This document shows positions 11,856 through 61,810 of a stretch of DNA of 64,000 bases, in pieces; positions within the stretch are counted from its first letter, which is position 1, and every line of letters starts with the position of its first letter. The translations under genes and the position numbers were made by a program. Origin of the DNA: Haloarculaceae archaeon (lineage in GTDB: Archaea > Halobacteriota > Halobacteria > Halobacteriales > Haloarculaceae); the NCBI GenBank assembly GCA_007122455.1, contig SKTU01000011.1, positions 1 to 64,000 of the forward strand, in the 5' to 3' direction. The notes below the pieces were generated by a model that worked only from the letters and a program-made list of their open reading frames with translations, did no database searches and was not told the DNA's origin.

Positions 11856-13742
11856 ATGCTTGTCTATGAAAGCACGAAATCCGGGTTCTTAGACGACGTT
11901 GTTGAGGGGCATTTAGTCCCGGAGATCAAACAAGGATACGAGTCAGAGGGAATCGGGATGGGCGGGGCGGGTGAGGTTCAAGCCTGGAAGAACTCTCTGC
12001 AGTACATGCATACTGTCCTGAGTGGCAGTTCAGTCCCGGACGACGCCGGCGTGGCAATCGAATTTAAAATCCCACTCACATCTCGCCGCATCGATTTCCT
12101 GGTCTCCGGCTACGACGAAGCAGACAACGCGAACGTCGTGATCATCGAACTCAAACAGTGGAATGGCGACAGTACACAGGCAGTCAACGACAAAGACGGA
12201 ATCGTGAAAACTGCTCTTGGTGGCGGCATCCGAGAAACAACCCATCCGAGTTACCAGGCGGTTTCGTATGCTCAACTGCTGAAAGACTTCAATATTAGTA
12301 TCCGCGAGAAACCGATCAATCTGCATCCACTGGCGTATCTCCACAACTTCGAACCCCTGTACAGAGAGACCCTCGACAACGAAACGTATCGCCCGTACAC
12401 CGAGCAGGCACCGCTCTACATCCGCGGAGATACGAAGAAGTTGCGTGCGTTTCTTGAATCACAGATTAATGTCGGGGATGACCGGGAAAATCTCTACGAG
12501 ATGAACGAAGGGAAGATCCGGCCGGCAAAATCCCTGCAGAACTCGCTGGTGGAGATGCTGGACGCCCGGGACGAGTTCACGCTGATCGACTCCCAGAAAG
12601 TCATCTTCGAGAAAGCCGTTGAACTGGCGAAGCAATCACGCCGTGACGGGAAAAAGCGCGTCTTGCTCGTCGACGGCGGCCCCGGAACTGGGAAAACGGT
12701 GGTGGCGATCAACGTCCTCGCGGAACTGATTCAGAGCGACATGGTCGCCCAGTACGTCTCGAAAAACCGAGCGCCACGAGAGGTCTACAAAGAAAAACTC
12801 CGAGGTGACAAACTCGTCAAAGAGATCGAACACCTCTTCACGGGTGCCGGAAGCTTTGTCGACACAGATACGGATACACTCCCAGCGTTAATCGCTGATG
12901 AGGCCCACCGACTGAACGAAGAATCAACGTTCTTCGGTCGCGGTGAAAACCAGATCATGGAGATAATCAACGCCGCCAAATTCAGCGTGTTCTTCATCGA
13001 CGAAAGCCAGCGCGTCCACATCGACGACATCGGATCCAAACAAGAAATCCACAAACACGCAACTGACCTGGGTGCTGAAATAGAGGAGTTGACGCTTGAA
13101 TCGCAATTCCGCTGCAACGGCTCAAAAGGCTACATTGCGTGGGTTGACGACGTACTACAGATCCGACGGACCGCGAACGCAGACGGGTTCGATCTGGAGT
13201 TCGACCTCCGGGTCTTCGCCTCACCCGAAGCCCTACATACGGCGATCGAAGAACAGAACGAACGGACACGTCTGTCACGGGTTGTAGCCGGGTATTGCTG
13301 GGAATGGGAGAAAGACGGCCGCTCCGACCCAGATGTGACAGACATCACGATCGGTGACTACGAGCGGAGTTGGAATCTCGACACCAGCGACCCCTGGGCG
13401 ATCGCGGAAGGCTCGATCGACGAAGTCGGCTGCATCCACACGTGCCAGGGTCTCGAATTCGACTACGTCGGCGTGATCATCGGCGAGGATCTGAAATACC
13501 GCGACGGAGAGATCGTCGTCGATCACGAAGCACGAGCGAGTACTGATCGATCGTTGTTCGGTATCAAGAAGATGTTCAAAGAGAATCCCGAGCAGGCTGC
13601 CGAGACGGCTGAAGAGCTCATCAAAAACACCTACCGGACGCTCATGACCCGTGGCATGAAAGGCTGCTACCTCTATTGCTGTGATGACGAACTCCAAAAG
13701 TATCTTAAAACACGCATCGAAAACAGTTCCATCACTCACTAA
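11856..13742 (+). CDS. PD-(D/E)XK nuclease - SF1 helicase fusion (DUF2075 / Schlafen-like helicase domain)
   Basis: This 628-residue protein has two parts. The N-terminus (about 60-190) has a restriction-endonuclease-like core: RRID80FLVSG, then VVIIE98LK100QW (D...ExK). The C-terminus is an SF1 motor of the DUF2075 type: Walker A GGPGTGK (274-280), Walker B IADEAH (D348, E349), FFIDESQ (379-385), SQFRCNG (motif with the finger Arg), HTCQGLEFDYVGVI and NTYRTLMTRGMKG. These proteins unwind or translocate on nucleic acid, and many are linked to phage defence. It sits between the pyrophosphatase (6 bp) and the exonuclease (14 bp). Its base composition is AT-richer than the core genes. Confidence 0.85.
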   Translation: MLVYESTKSGFLDDVVEGHLVPEIKQGYESEGIGMGGAGEVQAWKNSLQYMHTVLSGSSVPDDAGVAIEFKIPLTSRRIDFLVSGYDEADNANVVIIELKQWNGDSTQAVNDKDGIVKTALGGGIRETTHPSYQAVSYAQLLKDFNISIREKPINLHPLAYLHNFEPLYRETLDNETYRPYTEQAPLYIRGDTKKLRAFLESQINVGDDRENLYEMNEGKIRPAKSLQNSLVEMLDARDEFTLIDSQKVIFEKAVELAKQSRRDGKKRVLLVDGGPGTGKTVVAINVLAELIQSDMVAQYVSKNRAPREVYKEKLRGDKLVKEIEHLFTGAGSFVDTDTDTLPALIADEAHRLNEESTFFGRGENQIMEIINAAKFSVFFIDESQRVHIDDIGSKQEIHKHATDLGAEIEELTLESQFRCNGSKGYIAWVDDVLQIRRTANADGFDLEFDLRVFASPEALHTAIEEQNERTRLSRVVAGYCWEWEKDGRSDPDVTDITIGDYERSWNLDTSDPWAIAEGSIDEVGCIHTCQGLEFDYVGVIIGEDLKYRDGEIVVDHEARASTDRSLFGIKKMFKENPEQAAETAEELIKNTYRTLMTRGMKGCYLYCCDDELQKYLKTRIENSSITH

Positions 13743-15096: not shown

Positions 15097-15591
15097 TCAG
15101 TCGGTGTCGACGACGTAGAGTACGGTCAGGAAAACCAGCAGTGCGAACTCTGTCGCCTTGCTGACCATCGCGATGAGATCGCCCCGGAGATGGGCGATCA
15201 TCGATTCGACGAGCCCCACGTCCTCGTGGTGATGGGAGTCGATGTGTGGCCAAAAGGCGCCGTGGTCGAGGACGGTGTGCCAGGCGACGTACCCGAGCAG
15301 GTACGTACCGGTCAGAGCGATTCCGAGCAGGTAGACCGGGCGTTTCGCGACGCCCTTGAAGACCACGACGACGCCGGCGAAGATTCCCAGTCCCGAGAGC
15401 ACGAACAACGGCGGACGTGGGTCGTACACCGTTCCGAATTTGACGTATCGGAGTAGCTGTTCGTAGCCGTACTCCGGATGCAACAGATGGAGCCAGGCGA
15501 CGAGGATCGCGAGGGCGCCGGTACAAACCCGTACGAATCGAGTATGCCGGTCGTCGAGCGGCTTCGAAACGTCCGCGGCTTCGGCGACCAT
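15097..15591 (-). CDS. four-helix membrane protein beside the copper ATPase
   Basis: This 164-residue integral membrane protein has four predicted helices (starting at about residues 19, 54, 80 and 140) and a His-rich loop HIDSHHHEDVG between helices three and four that could bind metal. The start at 15591 (MVAEAADVSK) is the first start after which the sequence looks like protein. It is divergent from the copper P-type ATPase, with an 88 bp shared promoter region. A link to copper handling or to the nearby terminal oxidase is an inference from position; no family was recognised. Confidence 0.65.
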   Translation of the reverse strand: MVAEAADVSKPLDDRHTRFVRVCTGALAILVAWLHLLHPEYGYEQLLRYVKFGTVYDPRPPLFVLSGLGIFAGVVVVFKGVAKRPVYLLGIALTGTYLLGYVAWHTVLDHGAFWPHIDSHHHEDVGLVESMIAHLRGDLIAMVSKATEFALLVFLTVLYVVDTD

Positions 15592-15679
15592 GGTGATCGA
15601 TGTCGGCCCGCTCTCAAAACCGGTTCGGTGTTTACGACGAGTTACGATAACGGCGCAAGGCTTTCGACGCTCCGCGTGA

Positions 15680-18145
15680 ATGAGCGTGTCAATGGGTTCC
15701 TGCGATCTCTGTGACCTCCCCACGCCCGATCCGCCCGTGACGGGCGACGACGTCGATGGAGCCTTCTGCTGTCGGGGATGTCGCGCGGTCGCGGCGAAAC
15801 TCGACGAGGTCGACGAGGCTGCCGAGTCGACCGTCGATTCGCCCGGTACGGACTTCGACGACGGGGGCGTTCCGGACGACGCCCTCGAGACGTATCTCGC
15901 CGTCGATGGAATGCACTGCACGACGTGTGAGGCGTTTCTCGGGCTACACACCGACGATATCGGCGGGATTTACGCGATGGATGCCAACTACGCGATGGGG
16001 ACGGCTCGGGTCGTCTACGACCCGGAGGCCGTATCCGAGGCCGAACTCCCGGAGCTGCTGTCGGGATACGGCTACACGGTCCGGTTTCGTGACGACGACG
16101 GAGGCCCCGGAGTCGACGATGCTGCCAGGGCGCGCCAGCGCGACACCGTTGAGCGATTGATCGTCGGTGGGTTCTTCACGATGCTCGTGATGCCGTGGTA
16201 CTTCTTCTTCCTCTATCCCAGCTACCTCGGTATGGAGACTGGTTTGATCGCCGTCGACACGACGACCTCCCTCACGCTCTATCTCCCGATGGTGTTCATC
16301 GGTCTGTTCACGTCAGCCGTCCTCTTCTACACCGGCTATCCCGTACTTCGAGGTGCCTGGGTGAGCATCAAGACGCGACAGCCGAATATGGACCTGCTCG
16401 TGTCGGTCGCGGCGCTGTCGGCGTACGCCTACAGTACGGTCGCACTCGCGACCGGGAGCACCCACCTCTACTACGACGTCACCGTTGCGGTGATTATGGT
16501 CGTCACGGTCGGCCGGTACTACGAGGACCGGATTCGAAGCCGTGCGACGGACGCGATCTCGACGCTCACGACCGCCCGCGTCAGCGAGGCCGTGCGACTC
16601 ACCGCCGACGGCAGAGAAACCGTTCCCGTCGGTTCAGTCGAGCCGGGTGACCGACTCGTGGTCGCGCCCGGCGAACGCGTGCCGGTCGACGGTTCCGTCG
16701 TCGAGGGGGTGGCTGACGTCGACGAATCCGTCCTGACCGGCGAATCGCTGCCGGTGACCAAGGAGCCCGGTGACGAGATGGTCGGCGGGTCGGTCGTCGC
16801 CGACGACGCTCTCGTCGTCGAGGTCGGGCCAGACGCCGAGAGCACTGTCGACCGAATCGCGTCGGCACTGTGGGAGATCCAGAGCCGCTCGCCCGCGGCC
16901 CAGCGGCTGGCGGACGCGCTCGCAACGGTCTTCGTTCCGCTGGTGCTCGTGCTCGGGACGACCGTCGCACTCTGGCAGCTCCTGACCGGTGGCACTGTCG
17001 CCGCGGCCTTGCTCGCCGGTCTGACGGTGCTGGTCGTCTCGTGTCCGTGTGCGATGGGACTCGCGACGCCGCTCGCGATCTCCGCCGGTTTACGCGACGC
17101 ACTCGAGCGAGGTGTCGTCGTCACGAACGAGTCCGTCTTCGAGACCGCACCTGACGCCGACATCGTCGTCTTCGACAAGACCGGGACGCTGACGACCGGC
17201 GAGATGCGCGTGACCGACGTCACTGGATCGAGCGAGACGATTCGACTCGCGGCGGCAGTCGAGCGGTTCGCCAGCCACCCCGTCGCAGATGCGGTTCTGG
17301 ATGCGGCGATTCCGGATTCGGGGGGCAACCGCTCCGGAGTGGCGGCCGACGGCGGCGTCTCAGGCGTCGAAGCCGACTCGCCGGACGACCTCTCCGCCGT
17401 ACGTGAACTCCCCGACGCGCGGGAGTTCAACCGCCACCCCGGCGAAGGGGTCTCGGCGACCGTCGGTTCGCGCCGAGTCGTGGTCGGCACTCCGGATCTC
17501 GTGGAGCGAGAAGTAGGTGCGATTCCCGAGGAACTCGACGCTCGCATCGCCGAGGTCGATCGTCAGGGCGGGTTACCAGTCGTCGTCGGATGGGGCGGTC
17601 GTGCCCGTGGCGTCGTCACGATAGCGGATCGGGAGCGAGCCGACTGGGAGTCCGCGGTCGAGACGTTCGCGGACTGTGACGTCGTTGTGCTCACCGGGGA
17701 CGACGGAGCGAGCGCGGGACGGTTCCGCGACCACCAGGCTGTCGACCGAGTGTTTACCGGCGTCCCCCCGGACGGGAAGGTCGAGACCGTCCGCCGTCTC
17801 GCCGCGACGGGGACGACGGTGATGGTCGGCGACGGCACCAACGACGCGCCGGCACTGGCGGCGGCGGATATGGGAATCGCGATGGGCGACGGGACGGCCC
17901 GTGCCGCCGACGCCGCCGACGTCGTGGTCACCGACAGCGACCTCACGGCGGTCGACGACGTCTTCGCCCTCGCGACGGGGACACGTCGGCGCATCCGAGA
18001 GAACATCTGTTGGGCGTTCCTCTACAACGCGGTCGCGGTCCCGCTCGCCGTCGTCGGCCTCATCAACCCCTTCTTCGCCGCGCTGGCGATGGCCGCCAGC
18101 AGTATCATCGTGGTCACCAACTCGCGACGGACCGTGATCCGGTGA
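15680..18145 (+). CDS. heavy-metal (copper) P1B-type ATPase, CcoI/FixI-like
   Basis: This 821-residue pump has all P-type ATPase motifs: the intramembrane C455-P-C457 metal site, D499-K-T-G-T-L-T phosphorylation site, the SHPVAD nucleotide motif, and GD718GTNDAP. The N-terminus has a Cys cluster (C8-x2-C11 and C30-C-x2-C34) like the zinc-ribbon of CcoI/FixI, then an HMA domain with GMHC80TTC83. CPC with this N-terminus points to Cu(I). CcoI-type pumps supply copper for heme-copper oxidase assembly, which fits the terminal oxidase operon about 0.8 kb downstream. General copper efflux is the alternative. Confidence 0.9.
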   Translation: MSVSMGSCDLCDLPTPDPPVTGDDVDGAFCCRGCRAVAAKLDEVDEAAESTVDSPGTDFDDGGVPDDALETYLAVDGMHCTTCEAFLGLHTDDIGGIYAMDANYAMGTARVVYDPEAVSEAELPELLSGYGYTVRFRDDDGGPGVDDAARARQRDTVERLIVGGFFTMLVMPWYFFFLYPSYLGMETGLIAVDTTTSLTLYLPMVFIGLFTSAVLFYTGYPVLRGAWVSIKTRQPNMDLLVSVAALSAYAYSTVALATGSTHLYYDVTVAVIMVVTVGRYYEDRIRSRATDAISTLTTARVSEAVRLTADGRETVPVGSVEPGDRLVVAPGERVPVDGSVVEGVADVDESVLTGESLPVTKEPGDEMVGGSVVADDALVVEVGPDAESTVDRIASALWEIQSRSPAAQRLADALATVFVPLVLVLGTTVALWQLLTGGTVAAALLAGLTVLVVSCPCAMGLATPLAISAGLRDALERGVVVTNESVFETAPDADIVVFDKTGTLTTGEMRVTDVTGSSETIRLAAAVERFASHPVADAVLDAAIPDSGGNRSGVAADGGVSGVEADSPDDLSAVRELPDAREFNRHPGEGVSATVGSRRVVVGTPDLVEREVGAIPEELDARIAEVDRQGGLPVVVGWGGRARGVVTIADRERADWESAVETFADCDVVVLTGDDGASAGRFRDHQAVDRVFTGVPPDGKVETVRRLAATGTTVMVGDGTNDAPALAAADMGIAMGDGTARAADAADVVVTDSDLTAVDDVFALATGTRRRIRENICWAFLYNAVAVPLAVVGLINPFFAALAMAASSIIVVTNSRRTVIR

Positions 18146-18154
18146 GACGCGCCG

Positions 18155-18844
18155 TCAGAACGTTCTGACGTGGCGACGGAGCGTCTCCCCATCCCCGTCC
18201 CGATAGTCGACGACGAGCTCTTTCCCCGTCCTGGTTTCGTCGAGGTCGTCCGCGTGTACCTCGAACGCGAACGGTGGGTCGTCGACGGTTGCGACGACTG
18301 TTCCGCCAGAGGTAGCGACGACGTGGTCGATCCCGCGAGCGTCCTCGACGTGACAGGAGACGACGTCGTCGTCGACGTCACAGACCAGGTTGCCACGAAC
18401 CTCCCCTCGGTCCCCGTCTCCGCCGCCGAGCCCCGGGGCGAACTCGAACATCATGATCCCTGGCGTGAACGTCCCGAAAACGATCACGAGCGTGAAAAAT
18501 ATCGAGAGGTTGATCTTGCCCGAGTGCCGGTTCACCGCTCGAACGTACGGATGTTCGGCGGTTCGTCGAAGGCGTATCGAGACGGGAACGACGACGAAGT
18601 GAGTGAACGGTCCCCAGAAGAGCAGCAGGAAGCCGTACGCCATCACGTACGTGAGGAACTCCCACTCGGGTCGGACGGACAACAGGACGGCGCCGCTCGT
18701 CCAGGCGAAGAAGCCAAGAAAGATCAGTGCACCGCTCTTCAGCCACCTCCAGACTGGCGTGTTGGCGTAGTAGACGCTCAACAGGTCGCGCCACATTCGA
18801 CCGAGATACCACCGAAGCGATCTCGAAGTACGTTGATCTGACAT
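18155..18844 (-). CDS. membrane protein of the heme-copper oxidase locus
   Basis: This 229-residue protein has about three to four membrane helices (from residues 36, 64 and 112) and a soluble C-terminal domain of about 85 residues that reads as a beta-sandwich (LVCDVDDDVVSCHVEDARG to the end). It is the last gene on this strand after subunit I, 66 bp downstream, so it is probably part of the oxidase operon as an accessory or assembly factor. Other haloarchaeal ba3 loci carry small extra cba genes; I cannot equate it with one of them with confidence. Confidence 0.65.
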   Translation of the reverse strand: MSDQRTSRSLRWYLGRMWRDLLSVYYANTPVWRWLKSGALIFLGFFAWTSGAVLLSVRPEWEFLTYVMAYGFLLLFWGPFTHFVVVPVSIRLRRTAEHPYVRAVNRHSGKINLSIFFTLVIVFGTFTPGIMMFEFAPGLGGGDGDRGEVRGNLVCDVDDDVVSCHVEDARGIDHVVATSGGTVVATVDDPPFAFEVHADDLDETRTGKELVVDYRDGDGETLRRHVRTF

Positions 18845-18910
18845 CTTGAGTGTGTTGCGTAGGTGACGTGAACTCGGTAGCCGGCAGACGTCGAATGACG
18901 GGGACGGAAC

Positions 18911-20641
18911 TCAGGCGCCGATGGACCACAGCTGGACGAGGAGGAACCAGTTGAGGACGTAGAGGACGACGAACGTCGCCATGAAAATCAGGCACATTCC
19001 GAAGGTACCGCGCATGTCGACGGCGTGGACCGGCTCTCCGCCGTCCGGTTGCAGTCCGCCGTCGGGGCGCAGCCCGGCATCGTCGCCCTCGTCGAGGCGG
19101 TCGCCGAACAGCAGCGATCCGACTGCAACGAGGACGAACAGAACGCCGCCGAGTATCGCCAGCACGGCAAACACGCCGAAGAGAGACATGAGTGGTGCGG
19201 CCGCCGAGATACTGAAGTCGGTGCCGGGGATCTCTCGAACGACGCTGGAGGTCCGCCGCGGTACGCCGTAGAGGATGCCGAGGTAGATCATGGCCAGCGT
19301 CGCGATACCCATCGCGCCGGCGTAGAAGTACGGCACCAACAGGGCGAGCGTTCCGGAGAGGAAGTCCCGACGGAACATGGTCTGGATGACGAAGAAAACC
19401 AGGCCCATGAAGGCGAGGGTGGTGCCGAGGGCGACGGTGCCGTGGAAGTGCCCGACCGTCGCGAACGTGTTGTGCCACGTCATGTTGAGCTGGAGTTGAC
19501 CCATTAGGACGCCGGTGATGCCGCCGACGAAGCCGAAGAGGATGATGCTGAATATCGTCGCCGAAAACACCGGATTCCGCCACGGCGCCGACGTCAACCA
19601 GCCGAACAGCCCGCCGCCGAGACCGCGCTGACGGCGGCCGGCCTCCAGTCCTGCCGGAATGGCGAAGGCGTGTACCATGCTCGCGAACGCCGCCCCGTAG
19701 AAGGCGTACGACGTGTTGAAGAGTTTCCAGCCGACGCCGAGGCCGGGATCGACCATCAGGTGGTGGGCCGCCCCGAGGTTGATGAAGAACAGATAGAGGA
19801 TGAACGCCGACCGCGAGACCTTCTCGCTGACGACCACCGCCCCGCCGACGACGTGAGTCAGGAAGTACCACACCGTGATCATCGCCAGCAGGTTGATCTG
19901 CTGGGAGCCGTGACCGATCGTCCAGAAGAGCGTCCGATAGACGCCACTGTTGATCGTCTCGATGATGCCGAGTTTCCAGATGAGGCCGTAGCTGAAGGCG
20001 GTGATCCCGCCGAGGATGGCCTGGACGGCGATGATGCTCGTGACGAACGCACCGAAGGTGACGAGCGGGAGCGTCTCCCTCGTTCCCCAGCGCTTCTCCT
20101 TCCAGATGGTGGCGAAGAACGGCAGTGCGGCAATGGTTGCTCCGAGTAGGAAGACGATCGCGCTCGCGAAGAATCCGGTCGGGATGTTCAGCGGGACGTA
20201 GGCCGTGAGCAGCGGTGCCTCCTCGGCGCCGGAGGTCGTCCAGATGAAGTAGTTGACGCCGAGTGCGCCGGCGACCATGGTGATCCAGCCGGCTTTCGCG
20301 AGTTTCGTCAGCGGCAGTCGCCGACCGAGCACCATCGCGCCGCCGACGTAGAGGATCGCGATCTCCATGAACACCATCCAGAAGACGAGGATGTTCCAGG
20401 CGTGCATGCTGAGGTGTCGGTAGTAGTCGGCCTCGCCGATCAGTCCGATAAACTCCCAGCGCGTCAGCGCGACGGTGATGGCGAAGCTGCCACCGACGAC
20501 GAGCGCGACGACGGCCGTCAGCCCGAAGAGCTTGACGTGGTTCTCGGCCGAGCGGTGGATCTCGAGGCCGGTCACCGAGCAGGTCCGGAACCCCTCCTCG
20601 TCGTAGTCGTTGTCGAACAACTGCGTGATAGTCGACAGCAT
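18911..20641 (-). CDS. B-family heme-copper oxidase catalytic subunit I lacking the active-site Tyr (possible NO reductase)
   Basis: This 576-residue, roughly 13-helix subunit keeps the six metal-binding His: H80 (low-spin heme, SMHAW), H244 (CuB), H293-H294 (CuB, GAAHHLMVDPG), H398 (high-spin heme) and H400 (low-spin heme) in VGHFHGT. In ba3 oxidases the first CuB His begins H-P-x-V-Y, whose Tyr is cross-linked to it. Here the stretch is H244-G-S-Q-Q248, so the Tyr is replaced by Gln. NO reductases of this superfamily lack that Tyr. It directly follows the CuA subunit II gene. It could be an eNOR-like CuA NO reductase or an unusual oxidase. Confidence 0.85.
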   Translation of the reverse strand: MLSTITQLFDNDYDEEGFRTCSVTGLEIHRSAENHVKLFGLTAVVALVVGGSFAITVALTRWEFIGLIGEADYYRHLSMHAWNILVFWMVFMEIAILYVGGAMVLGRRLPLTKLAKAGWITMVAGALGVNYFIWTTSGAEEAPLLTAYVPLNIPTGFFASAIVFLLGATIAALPFFATIWKEKRWGTRETLPLVTFGAFVTSIIAVQAILGGITAFSYGLIWKLGIIETINSGVYRTLFWTIGHGSQQINLLAMITVWYFLTHVVGGAVVVSEKVSRSAFILYLFFINLGAAHHLMVDPGLGVGWKLFNTSYAFYGAAFASMVHAFAIPAGLEAGRRQRGLGGGLFGWLTSAPWRNPVFSATIFSIILFGFVGGITGVLMGQLQLNMTWHNTFATVGHFHGTVALGTTLAFMGLVFFVIQTMFRRDFLSGTLALLVPYFYAGAMGIATLAMIYLGILYGVPRRTSSVVREIPGTDFSISAAAPLMSLFGVFAVLAILGGVLFVLVAVGSLLFGDRLDEGDDAGLRPDGGLQPDGGEPVHAVDMRGTFGMCLIFMATFVVLYVLNWFLLVQLWSIGA

Positions 20642-21187
20642 TTACGGTTCCTCCACGTAGAGCGTGCCGTGCATGCCGTTGTGGCCCCGGCCACAGAATT
20701 CGTTGCAGATGACGTGGTACGTACCCGAGTCCTCGAAGGTCATCGGGACGACCCACTCGGTGTCCGGGAGGATCTGGAGGTTGATCTGCTGGCTCAGGCT
20801 GTGCTCCGGGCGGATCGAGAAGCCGTGCTGGACGTCGTACGCTCCCATGTGGATGTCGTACTCCCGCCCCGCTTCGAGGACCACGGGGAGACCGTCCCAG
20901 TTGAACCGCTGGCCGCCGATGTAGACCGAGTCTCCCGGCGGGATGATGTGTCCCTCGTCGGTCTGTTCGGCCTCCTCCTTGTACTCCTGGACCGTCTGTC
21001 GGTATTCGGCCGGCTCGACCGCGTACGTCTCACCGACAGGGTTTTGATCGCCAAAGCGGGTGAAGCCGCTCATCCAGCCGAATATGGCGAGCGACCACAC
21101 GCCCGCGATGCCGAGCCAGGTGGCTTCACGCCGATTGACCGGTTCGTCCCACCAGTTACCTTCGGGTTCGTCGAATGGTCCCGACAT
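20642..21187 (-). CDS. heme-copper oxidase subunit II with CuA site
   Basis: This 181-residue protein has one N-terminal membrane helix (about 23-42) and an outward cupredoxin domain. The dinuclear CuA ligands are complete: H121, C161, E163 (backbone), C165, H169 and M172 in CNEFCGRGHNGM. It takes electrons from a cytochrome or halocyanin-type copper protein and passes them to subunit I. It starts 3 bp after the 48-residue subunit stops, and its stop abuts the subunit I start codon. Short N-terminal single-helix subunit II is typical of B-family (ba3-like) enzymes and of CuA-containing NO reductases. Confidence 0.92.
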   Translation of the reverse strand: MSGPFDEPEGNWWDEPVNRREATWLGIAGVWSLAIFGWMSGFTRFGDQNPVGETYAVEPAEYRQTVQEYKEEAEQTDEGHIIPPGDSVYIGGQRFNWDGLPVVLEAGREYDIHMGAYDVQHGFSIRPEHSLSQQINLQILPDTEWVVPMTFEDSGTYHVICNEFCGRGHNGMHGTLYVEEP

Positions 21188-21190
21188 AGG

Positions 21191-21337
21191 TCACCTCGCA
21201 GGCACCGACAGGATATCCACCAGTCCCCATCCCACGTACGTGATGAAGAAAAAGAGGATACCAGCTACCGCCAGTAGCCATATGCGGTTGTAGAGTCGCT
21301 GCATGACCGGGATGTCCTCGGGATCTTGGTGGCTCAT
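21191..21337 (-). CDS. 48-residue single-helix subunit of the heme-copper oxidase operon
   Basis: The frame from the ATG at 21337 to the TGA at 21191-21193 encodes MSHQDPEDIPVMQRLYNRIW, then one hydrophobic helix and a short tail. It ends 3 bp before the subunit II start, which argues for translation. Single-helix polypeptides of this size (subunit IIa in Thermus ba3, CbaD-like in haloarchaea) occur in B-family oxidases. It is the first gene of the operon; an AT-rich GTTTTAAC box lies about 37 bp upstream. Confidence 0.8.
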   Translation of the reverse strand: MSHQDPEDIPVMQRLYNRIWLLAVAGILFFFITYVGWGLVDILSVPAR

Positions 21338-21598: not shown

Positions 21599-22073
21599 TT
21601 ACTCATCAAATTCGACACCGGTGATCTCGAATCTGGCTCCATCCTCAGACCCGGCTGTGATTTGCAATGACCACCCATGCGCTTCGATGATTTCCTGAAC
21701 GATTGCCAATCCGAACCCTGTCCCGCTATCGGAGTACGAAGATCCCCATTTGAGCAGCGTCTGGCGTTCGGTTAGCGGAACTCCTGGGCCATCGTCTTCG
21801 ACAAAAAAGCCCGTTCCATCTTCTAATAGACCGACGGTGATCGTTACGTCCTCTCCGCCGTGTTCGATGGCGTTTCGAAATAGGTTCTCGAACACTTGCT
21901 CTAGTCTGATAGCATCCCCCTGAATCGTGACGTCCGTCTCGATATCGAGGGTCGCCTCGGATTGGGCAATGGAGCTCCAGCACGTTTCGGTTAGATGTGG
22001 CAGCGATACCGGTTTCATATCGTCGATCGTCGCTCCGATTCTGGCCAGCTCGAGTACGTTCGTATTGACATCC

Positions 22074-22095
22074 TCCCGCGCCTGGAGACGCGGGA
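22074..22095 (-). repeat. right-end hairpin of the IS element (probable reRNA scaffold)
   Basis: TCCCGCG-8 nt-CGCGGGA stem-loop between the end of tnpB and the right end of the element. In TnpB systems the guide (omega/reRNA) runs from the 3' part of tnpB through this hairpin into flanking DNA, so the guide would begin at 22064 on the minus strand, TACGAACGTACTCGAG, within the kinase gene. No transcript evidence is available. Confidence 0.6.
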
Positions 22096-22127
22096 ATCCC
22101 ACGGCACCGCACCGCTGGATTGGGATA

Positions 22128-23441
22128 TTACGGTTTGCAGTCTACCATCTCGGCTTGCGGTTGGAATCCGCAGGAGAGGTCATACAGGTAGACTCCGGGC
22201 TGTGCCAACCAGCCGGTACTCCTATCCCCACCCAAATCGGGTGCAGATTCGGAGTTACTTTGCTTCAGGTCGAGTCGGATGTTCTCCGCCCCGTTCACGT
22301 CAGCGTTGAACGCCGCATCACATACCTCGCACACGTACAACCCACGTTCAACACGCTGACTATCATCTTCTTTACCACACACGCAACACGTCTTGCTCGT
22401 GTCTTGTTCAGACACCTCCACGACTTCGATACCCTCGACTTTGGCCTTGTATTCGAGGATATTCGTGAAGCGGTCGAACGCCCACCCGTGCAGGTCGAGG
22501 TTGCCGTGCTTGCCCCAGTTCTTCGACACACCGTTCTCGTCCTCACGCACGCCTTCCAGGTCCCCGACGTTGATGCGGCCAACGCCCTTCTCGACACATC
22601 TTTCAACGATGTGTTTTGCTAAGGAGTGAAAGAAGTGAGTGCGGCGTTCCGACCACGTGTGGTGCAGTCGCGTGGCTTCGTCACCACCAGAGTCGTCGCA
22701 TTTGCCGATTTCTTTCGGGAAGTAGTAGCCGTCCTGTTTCAATCGGTTGCCGGGGTACAGGTCGGCGTCTTCGGTGCTGTAGGCAACGGCAGCGAAGTTG
22801 CTGATGCCGAGGTCGATACCGGCTGTCTCGTTGCCGGGAGCGTCGGGAGTCTCGATTTCGTATTTGCAGACGAGGTGGAGATCCCATCGATCCTTCGCCT
22901 TGTCGTAGACGGCCCTGACTTGTTGTAGATTCTCGACCGTGACACCGGGGCGGGTTTCGTACTCTACAAGGATGTACTCCCACGCTTTCGGGTGTTCCTT
23001 GTGATTTGCACCCTTCGAGAGCCGAACCCGATTGTTCTTGGTATCGTGTCGAATACCGTTTTGCTTCCACGTCACCGTACTACGCGGGTGTTCTTCGTGA
23101 ACACGGCGGCCTTGGTTGTCGTAGTAGTTTTCTTTGCGGTAGCCGGGCGGATTATCCCGTTTGTCATCACTGGAGTACCACGAGTTGAAGGCTTCAGCGA
23201 GTTCCTCCAGAACCCGCTGACTGGACTGACTGTGCAGTCCCTTGTACTTTGGATGCGTCTTCAACTCGTCTTTCAACTCCTCGTGGTCGGGAATCTCGCC
23301 GGTTTCCTCCCACACGTCTCGGGAGTAGTAGTTAGCGACGTTCCAGAGTTTGCTGGCCGACCACCCGTGTCGGTCGAGCGATTCCGCGACCTGTGAGTGG
23401 TTACGGATTTCCGCTCGATAGGTGCGGTGGACTTCCAGCAT
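22128..23441 (-). CDS. tnpB: TnpB RNA-guided nuclease (IS605 OrfB)
   Basis: This 437-residue protein has an N-terminal helical region and a split RuvC nuclease. All catalytic residues are in place: RuvC I GID210LGISNF, RuvC II GDLE296G, RuvC III NAD381VNGAENI. The zinc ribbon is C352-x2-C355 and C371-x2-C374. It should be an active guide-RNA nuclease that cuts the empty donor site next to the TTAT tag and so favours retention of the element. The start MLEVHRTYRA at 23441 is preferred; seven more in-frame codons lie upstream. Confidence 0.93.
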   Translation of the reverse strand: MLEVHRTYRAEIRNHSQVAESLDRHGWSASKLWNVANYYSRDVWEETGEIPDHEELKDELKTHPKYKGLHSQSSQRVLEELAEAFNSWYSSDDKRDNPPGYRKENYYDNQGRRVHEEHPRSTVTWKQNGIRHDTKNNRVRLSKGANHKEHPKAWEYILVEYETRPGVTVENLQQVRAVYDKAKDRWDLHLVCKYEIETPDAPGNETAGIDLGISNFAAVAYSTEDADLYPGNRLKQDGYYFPKEIGKCDDSGGDEATRLHHTWSERRTHFFHSLAKHIVERCVEKGVGRINVGDLEGVREDENGVSKNWGKHGNLDLHGWAFDRFTNILEYKAKVEGIEVVEVSEQDTSKTCCVCGKEDDSQRVERGLYVCEVCDAAFNADVNGAENIRLDLKQSNSESAPDLGGDRSTGWLAQPGVYLYDLSCGFQPQAEMVDCKP

Positions 23442-23559
23442 TCTGAACGTCTGTATAATCACTTATACTCGCTTTCTTGTAAAGATTAGGATTGAGAATG
23501 GTGGAATATCCAGCTCTGTCGAAGCCTGTGGAACTGGGTCACGGAGTGACGGCGCGTAT

Positions 23560-23579
23560 CCACGGCCTGAAGGCCGTGG
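23560..23579. repeat. left-end hairpin of the IS element
   Basis: Imperfect palindrome CCACGGCC-TGAA-GGCCGTGG, 19 bp inside the left end of the element. IS200/IS605 left ends carry such a subterminal hairpin as the TnpA recognition site. Confidence 0.7.
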
Positions 23580-24663
23580 TATTTCGCCTGTTCAGCCTAT
23601 AATCCGATCCATTCTCGCCAACGCATTCGACACCCGTTCCAGTTCCTCGCTGTCATCCTTGGATCGGGCGATCTCCAAAAAGCCGTCAGCGACGTTCCAC
23701 GGGTTTCGGAGGTCATGAGCGACGACGGAAGCGAATCGATCAAGCTGATCGTTTTTCCGTTTTAGCTCCTGCGCATACTCCTTCCGCTCCGAGATGTCTC
23801 GGGTATACCCGACAATCCTAACCACTTCACCGTCTTCGGTGACCGGTTTGGCATGCGATTCCACCCACTTTTCATCCGTGCCTGCGGTATCGATTCGGTA
23901 ATCGATTTGAACGAGTTTACCATCCGAAACACGTTCCATCGCCATCGAAACCCGCTCACGGTCGTCGGGATCGATCGCCTGGAGGAAGGCTGACGGTTCG
24001 TGTTCGACCGCCTCCACCGGTTGCTCGAAGACCGTTTCGTACGCCGAATTAATGAACAGGAGCTCACTCCAATCGCCAGCGAATATATACAAGACGTCGT
24101 TAGCCTGCTCACTTAGCTCTCTGAGATATTGTTCAACTTGATCAGCTCGTTGAGCTGTCCGACGTTGTTCCACAACGGTGACGATCTTGGTTGCCAGTAG
24201 CTCGTACTGTTCCGCGACGGTCTCCTTGATCAAGTAATCCGTGACATCCGCACTAATGGCGCGGCTTGCGACCTCCTCGCTTCCGGTATCGGTAAACAGT
24301 ATGACTGGAACGCCGGAGATCTCCTCTCGAGCAGCTTCGAGAACTTCCAAACCCGTTCCATCTCCCAGCTGGTAATCACTGACTATACAATCCGTCTGAC
24401 CGTTCAACTGATCGAGTCCTTCTTCAACCGAGGTAGCCGCTTGGACACTGAGTCTATCGTTCTCACGTTCGAGATTCGTCGCAACCAACCTGGCAAAATC
24501 GGGTTCGTCATCGATGTGGATGACCCGGATCGGTTCAGACATGGATACAAACGGATCGACGTAGGTGAAAATGGTTTGTCTAGATTCGCCTTCTGTGCAG
24601 TAGAACGATCGAATCCGAGTATCGGGACGAATACGCACGTTGTATCGTCGTACGCGTCACGTC

Positions 24664-60037: not shown

Positions 60038-61810
60038 GTGATCAGTATTACCAACTATGGATTCGTAATAGACAACCGGAGATGTATCGGGTGCCACGCC
60101 TGTACGGTCGCGTGCAAGGCCGAACACGACGATCCGATCGGCGTCAACAAGACGTGGGTGAAGTACATCGAGAAAGGTGAATTTCCGAACACGAACCGGA
60201 ACTTCTCGGTGATGCGGTGTAACCACTGTGACGACTCTCCCTGTACCGACGTCTGTCCGGTGACAGCGCTCTGGGAGCGCGAGGACGGCATCGTCGACTT
60301 CGATCCCGAGCGCTGTATCGGCTGTAAGGCGTGTATGCAGGGCTGTCCCTACGACGCGCTCTACATCGATCCCGAAACGTCGACCGCTGCCAAATGTAAC
60401 TACTGCTCCCACAGAGTCGACGCGGGCCGAGAGCCGGCCTGCGTGACCGTCTGCCCCGAGGACGCAATCATCGCGGGCGACATGGAGAACCCCGATACGG
60501 AGATCACGCGGACGATCTCCGAACAGGAGGTCCAGGCCCGAAAGCCCGAGAAGGGAACCGAGCCGAAGCTGTTCTACGTCAACGGCGACGAGGGGAGTAT
60601 CACGCCGGGCACGACCGCCCGCGAGGAGCATTACATGTGGAGCGACGCACCGAACCGCACCGAGGTTCAGGGCGGCCAGCGCGAGGACTTCGACCTCCAG
60701 CGCGCCGCCCAGTCACTGGCCGACTCCGACGTCTCGCTGTCCGGTGGCGGTGAGGGAGACGGCGACCGGGCCCGCGCAGACGGTGGCTGTGGCTGCGGCG
60801 GGAACTGTCGGTGTCGCGGGAACGGTGATCGCCGGTACGCGTCCGACGGCGGTAGCCACGCCGCGACGCCGACTGCGAGCGGTACGGCCGGTGGAGAGAG
60901 CGGGTCCAGGACCGAGCGCGCCTACGAACTGCTCCACGAGGAAGCCAGGCGCGTCTACGACGTCGGCGAGAGCCACTACCAGTCGTGGGGCTGGGAGGTG
61001 TACTCCTACACCTGGACGAAATCCATTTCGGCAGGGGCGTTCCTCCTTCCCGCGCTGTTGGTCGTCACCGGCCTCGTCGACGCCAGTGCGACGCTGATCG
61101 GGACCGCCGCGGCCGTGAGTGTGGCCTTCCTCGGACTGACAGGTGTCCTCCTCGTGCTCGATCTCGAGCAGCCTTCGCGCTTCCACTGGGTGCTGTTGCG
61201 TCCGAACTGGCGTTCGTGGCTGGTGAAGGGCGCCTACATCATCACAGCGTTCGGCGCCTTCCTCGGGGCCATCGTTCTCGGCTGGGTGCTCGGCTACGGG
61301 AGCGCGATCACTCACCCCGTAACTCTGGTCGTCGGCATCGCGCTGTCGACGGCCACAGCCGTCTACACGGCGTTCCTCTTCAGCCAGTCGAAGGGGCGCG
61401 ACCTCTGGCAGAGTCCCGCGATGCCGATCCACATGTTCACGCAGGCAGTCATCGCCGGTAGCGCGGTGACGGCCCTGCTGGGGCTGCTCGGCTACGGCGG
61501 GCTCGTGGAGCCGTCGCGGCTGTTCCTCGCCGGTGGGCTCCTCGCTCACGCCGCACTCGTCGCCTCCGAGATATTCACGCCGCATCAGACTGAGGACGCC
61601 GAAGAGGCCGCCGCACGCATCACTCGCGGGCGGTTCAGCCGCACGTTCTGGATCGGCGGTATCGTCGTCGGGATCGCACTCCCGCTCATCGCACTCGCGG
61701 TGGGCGGCGCTCCCGCTCTCGTCGCGGGTGCCGGCGTGCTCGCACTCGCTGGCCTGTTTGCCTTCGAGTACTGCTGGATAATCGCACCACAGACGATCTC
61801 ACTCGCCTAA
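60038..61810 (+). CDS. fused 4Fe-4S ferredoxin - NrfD membrane subunit
   Basis: This 590-residue protein starts with GTG, since the frame upstream closes at 60020. The N-terminal third (to about 180) has four Fe-S Cys sets (C16-x2-C19-x2-C22-x3-C26 first), like SoeB/PsrB. A linker (about 190-300) contains a Cys-rich stretch GGCGCGGNCRCRG. The C-terminal half (about 315-590) has about eight helices of NrfD/PsrC type, the quinone-reactive membrane anchor. The fusion of B and C subunits is unusual. It is 1 bp before the molybdenum subunit gene. No TAT or Sec signal, so the Fe-S part is cytoplasmic. Confidence 0.85.
   Translation: MISITNYGFVIDNRRCIGCHACTVACKAEHDDPIGVNKTWVKYIEKGEFPNTNRNFSVMRCNHCDDSPCTDVCPVTALWEREDGIVDFDPERCIGCKACMQGCPYDALYIDPETSTAAKCNYCSHRVDAGREPACVTVCPEDAIIAGDMENPDTEITRTISEQEVQARKPEKGTEPKLFYVNGDEGSITPGTTAREEHYMWSDAPNRTEVQGGQREDFDLQRAAQSLADSDVSLSGGGEGDGDRARADGGCGCGGNCRCRGNGDRRYASDGGSHAATPTASGTAGGESGSRTERAYELLHEEARRVYDVGESHYQSWGWEVYSYTWTKSISAGAFLLPALLVVTGLVDASATLIGTAAAVSVAFLGLTGVLLVLDLEQPSRFHWVLLRPNWRSWLVKGAYIITAFGAFLGAIVLGWVLGYGSAITHPVTLVVGIALSTATAVYTAFLFSQSKGRDLWQSPAMPIHMFTQAVIAGSAVTALLGLLGYGGLVEPSRLFLAGGLLAHAALVASEIFTPHQTEDAEEAAARITRGRFSRTFWIGGIVVGIALPLIALAVGGAPALVAGAGVLALAGLFAFEYCWIIAPQTISLA

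Follow-up and report, generated by a model that had tools for sequence, protein, structure and literature searches.

We report that a gene cluster in a 64,000-nucleotide stretch of a Haloarculaceae archaeon contig (SKTU01000011.1; this whole stretch is referred to as the window) very probably encodes eNOR, a heme-copper nitric oxide (NO) reductase derived from the B-family, and that it would act in denitrification downstream of NirK. The initial annotation had suggested a possible CuA-linked NO reductase, a suggestion supported by a glutamine at the position of the cross-linked tyrosine, by the clade in which the catalytic subunit falls, and by linkage to NirK, and which can be refined to eNOR rather than CuANOR (also called bNOR). 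The enzyme is an ordinary member of the already described eNOR family, and the novelty lies mainly in its strong haloarchaeal linkage to NirK, in the genomes where eNOR occurs with no qNOR match, and in the conserved partner genes.

The name eNOR is due to Hemp and colleagues. The family is treated by Murali et al. (2024 PNAS, as cited in PMC11388526 and in PMC13274419) and by Schwartz et al. (2022, PMC8756737), and PMC11388526 lists it as biochemically characterised and B-family-related. It is recognised by Gln at the Tyr site together with a cupredoxin subunit II encoded immediately upstream, is known from Natronomonas and other Halobacteria, and is often misannotated as cytochrome c oxidase (PMC8756737); bacterial members have been reported too. 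The window cluster shares with it the replacement of Tyr by Gln, descent from the B-family, a cupredoxin (CuA) subunit II gene immediately upstream of that for subunit I, and occurrence in Natronomonas and other Halobacteria. No difference was found in the core enzyme, and genes for a 48-residue and a 229-residue protein are conserved alongside it.

The active site of subunit I

Subunit I aligns with the Thermus thermophilus ba3 oxidase at E = 1e-37, and the six metal-ligand histidines claimed for it in the initial annotation are all present and align with the ba3 ligands, H244, H293 and H294 binding CuB and H80, H398 and H400 the hemes. Because the segment H244-G-S-Q-Q248 falls on the H-P-I-V-Y of ba3, Q248 occupies the position of ba3 Tyr237, confirming the substitution that had been proposed. 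Every one of the 55 family sequences spanning this segment, the window protein's included, has the motif HG[ST]QQIN, whereas the B-family oxidases compared, T. thermophilus ba3 among them, have H[PA]xVYFW with the Tyr in 30/30, as had been asserted for O2-reducing members of that family; this invariance on both sides therefore excludes chance or sequencing error. Subunit I is thus not placed among the B-family oxygen reductases, having Q248 where a Tyr is expected four residues after the CuB histidine. A relocated cross-linking Tyr of the cbb3 type, the mark of the C-family, was also sought and is rejected, with Ile in 55/55 at position 287, the place on helix VII matched to the cbb3 site by spacing from the His pair.

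Other positions also separate the two groups. Residues 312, 315, 324 and 384 are fixed differently in the family (n=55) and in the B-family oxidases (n=30); Y312 and Y315, on the helix after helix VII, are invariant in the family, whereas at 312 the oxidases have Asn or Leu and at 315 Phe. Q247, N250, Y312 and H324 make up a set of active-site and channel changes fixed across the 55 family proteins. A fold search with an AlphaFold model of subunit I found ba3 structures to be nearest; with a mean pLDDT of 77.9 the model is of moderate quality, the stretch around residues 385-400 being poor, and it therefore supports the fold only.

By homology search the enzyme is present in 28 of 146 Halobacteria genomes, counting the window's own, with relatives 61-84% identical to the window subunit I before the next matches drop to ~30%. 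A scan of named genomes found archaeal relatives in Natrarchaeobius, Natronomonas, Halovenus, Halorubrum, Natrinema, Halobacterium and others, and bacterial ones in Rhodothermus MAGs, Salinivenus, Bacteroidota and one Chloroflexi fragment; the genus group of the window includes Natronomonas sp. LN261 (enzyme match on NZ_JACDNQ010000012). The Rhodothermus MAG enzymes are 61-62% identical to the window subunit I and have the four-gene order in common with it, and the characterised eNOR reportedly came from Rhodothermus marinus. In a tree built without a bNOR sequence and without that of the characterised eNOR, the family (to which the enzymes of the Rhodothermus MAGs, Bacteroidota and Natronomonas belong) and the B-family oxidases form separate clades with 100% SH-aLRT support, such that the phylogenetic check proposed at the outset places subunit I in a clade of its own, outside the Tyr-bearing oxidases.

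Subunit I and the T. thermophilus ba3 oxidase have the same fold, six metal-binding His, a CuA subunit II and part of the K-path, but differ in the motif (HPIVY in ba3, HGSQQ here), are ~30% identical, and belong to separate clades. A B-family enzyme still reducing O2 despite loss of its cross-linked Tyr would fit this nearness to ba3 in sequence and fold, the oxidase-like CuA subunit, and the homologues of heme o synthase (CtaB) near eNOR in 30/53 loci, and heme-copper enzymes can show O2 side activities. It is nonetheless very unlikely, since the Gln is invariant and accompanied by the four fixed changes listed above, Tyr-bearing oxidases are present in the window's genome besides, and co-occurrence with NirK (see below) would be unexpected for an oxidase.

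The same B-family origin and CuA-type electron entry are found in bNOR (CuANOR), both it and eNOR being NORs that derive from the B-family and have a CuA subunit II (PMC11388526), and could suggest that the enzyme is a bNOR. However, the diagnostic residue of bNOR is reported as Asn (Table A4 of PMC8756737) and bNOR has so far been reported from Bacillota only (PMC11388526), against Gln and an archaeal source here, and we judge that assignment extremely improbable. A qNOR identity is rejected: the window's genome (87% complete) gave no match to PF22085 (the NorB cytochrome c-like domain) and no qNOR was detected in it, subunit I lacks the fused cytochrome c-like domain of qNOR, and COX1 is its sole Pfam match. 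The cNOR and qNOR enzymes, which are related to the C-family and have Glu residues and non-heme iron, have the superfamily and the predicted reaction in common with the window enzyme.

As an eNOR, the enzyme would catalyse 2 NO + 2 e- + 2 H+ -> N2O + H2O. Electrons would pass from a small blue copper protein to the CuA of subunit II, then to the low-spin heme (H80/H400), and finally to the high-spin heme (H398) and CuB (H244/H293/H294). Because NO reduction takes two electrons rather than four, the cross-linked Tyr would be unneeded as a donor of an electron and a proton, and the Gln in its place may hydrogen-bond NO-derived intermediates. Protons are probably drawn from the cytoplasm through a modified K-path-like route; with regard to the one proton channel expected of an eNOR, several K-path residues are kept in subunit I (Y259, S272 and S321) and two are replaced, with H324 standing for ba3 T312 and ba3 Y244 lost.

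Partner genes of the cluster

The genes of the cluster and its immediate neighbours are listed in Table 1. The conserved core runs in the order 48-residue subunit, subunit II, subunit I, and 229-residue protein; the first three are present in 53/53 loci and the fourth in 50/53, with two of the three contigs that lack it ending nearby. Some haloarchaeal lineages have the genes more widely spaced, with a homologue of heme o synthase between subunit I and the fourth gene.

Table 1. Genes of the predicted eNOR cluster and neighbouring genes, in window coordinates
Feature	Position	Strand	Basis or remark
Small membrane protein on the far side of the ATPase, divergently oriented to it	15097..15537	minus	no named family
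Copper-translocating P1B-type ATPase, convergent with the cluster	15680..18145	plus	
229-aa product of the fourth conserved gene, with three TM helices and an Ig-like domain at its C terminus	18158..18844	minus	
Predicted eNOR subunit I, heme-copper catalytic, 576 aa	18914..20641 (stop codon 18911-18913)	minus	ORF, alignments, tree
Predicted eNOR subunit II, 181 aa, membrane anchor and CuA domain	20645..21187 (stop codon 20642-20644)	minus	ORF, CuA ligands
48-residue single-helix subunit, first cluster gene	21194..21337	minus	ORF, in 53/53 loci

The full CuA site attributed to subunit II at the outset is present, with all six ligands (H121, C161, E163, C165, H169 and M172) invariant in 54/54 homologues, and the 48-residue subunit and copper ATPase noted beside the locus both prove to be real ORFs. 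The 48-residue protein, 66.7% identical to its counterpart in a second cluster of the same genome, is probably an accessory subunit. The 229-residue protein, whose Ig-like domain has an invariant C155 and C164 and whose predicted structure has a mean pLDDT of 89.7, matches no family in Pfam or NCBIfam, and a PDB fold search returned generic Ig-like matches only, none at E <= 0.001; it is most likely a subunit or an assembly factor. The copper ATPase, which most haloarchaeal loci of high identity in subunit I encode near eNOR, on either strand, probably supplies copper. That the small membrane protein beyond it is part of the eNOR system is doubtful. Antisense ORFs inside the genes, among them those at 18378-20756 and at 15097-15951 (284 aa), were rejected as reading-frame artefacts of GC-rich DNA.

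Elsewhere in the window, the gene for a receiver-PAS-histidine kinase that adjoins the cluster (21599-24638, minus strand) is apparently split by an IS605-type TnpB gene (22128-23462) into a HisKA half (23592-24638) and a HATPase half (21599-22102). A protein with a Schlafen group 3 type helicase domain is encoded at 11856-13742 on the plus strand. From 60038 to the right edge, genes for an Fe-S/NrfD membrane protein (60038-61810) and, from ~62034, a molybdopterin oxidoreductase resemble a polysulfide or thiosulfate reductase-type operon.

NirK, qNOR and denitrification

Among the 146 Halobacteria genomes, NirK – called from matches over the curated cut-off – is found in 28/28 with eNOR and 46/118 without (Fisher p = 2e-10), and in the seven genera with both kinds of genome it is found in 20/20 with eNOR and 3/16 without (p = 2e-7), although both p-values overstate independence because the genomes are related. 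The two genes are also physically linked, with nirK lying <=10 kb from eNOR in 11 of the 28 Halobacteria genomes and in 18 of 53 named loci, Bacteroidota included; in Bacteroidota CG12 a nirK-cytochrome c fusion adjoins the eNOR cluster. Such physical proximity, seen in both archaea and Bacteroidota, supports the assignment independently. At one Bacteroidota locus (L070, 1864-4142 and 7512-8663), nirK and eNOR are flanked by genes for two small COX1-like membrane proteins and for a membrane protein of 383 aa that matches nothing in Pfam, and these flanking genes may be NO-response (NnrS-like) genes.

The association with NirK alone is no proof that eNOR handles NO, because qNOR is also present in 19 of the 28 eNOR genomes. 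In the other nine genomes with eNOR and NirK, a domain search gave no match to qNOR. These nine contradict a dedicated haloarchaeal survey, which states that haloarchaea have no NOR class other than qNOR (PMC8400030).

The window's genome has NirK and NosZ (on contigs C108 and C120, respectively) and two eNOR clusters, which have the same layout, copper ATPase included, and subunits I that are 83% identical. The second cluster is complete and lies on contig C131 (L006 3365-6570), with its own copper ATPase 69% identical to that of the window; a Tyr-bearing oxidase and a second ATPase are encoded within a few kb of it, and farther off there is a homologue of heme o synthase. Possession of two clusters could mean different roles, and since the function of the haloarchaeal branch is inferred, some other heme-copper function might be considered: the enzyme might dismutate NO, or it might sense or detoxify NO with no coupling to respiration. 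Such a function is most improbable, however, with both NirK and NosZ in the genome and a related eNOR reported as a biochemically characterised NOR in PMC11388526.

Taking eNOR as the preferred identity, we lean towards the broader view that it is the sole respiratory NO reductase in many haloarchaea, so that genomes regarded as those of 'incomplete denitrifiers' reduce NO, and that the conserved single-helix and three-TM Ig-like partners may be undescribed. Surveys of haloarchaeal denitrification have overlooked eNOR because its genes often carry the annotation cytochrome c oxidase, and its presence in about a fifth of the Halobacteria genomes (28/146) affects the NO and N2O release predicted from hypersaline environments. 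The case also shows NO reductases arising from oxygen reductases through replacement of the active-site Tyr.
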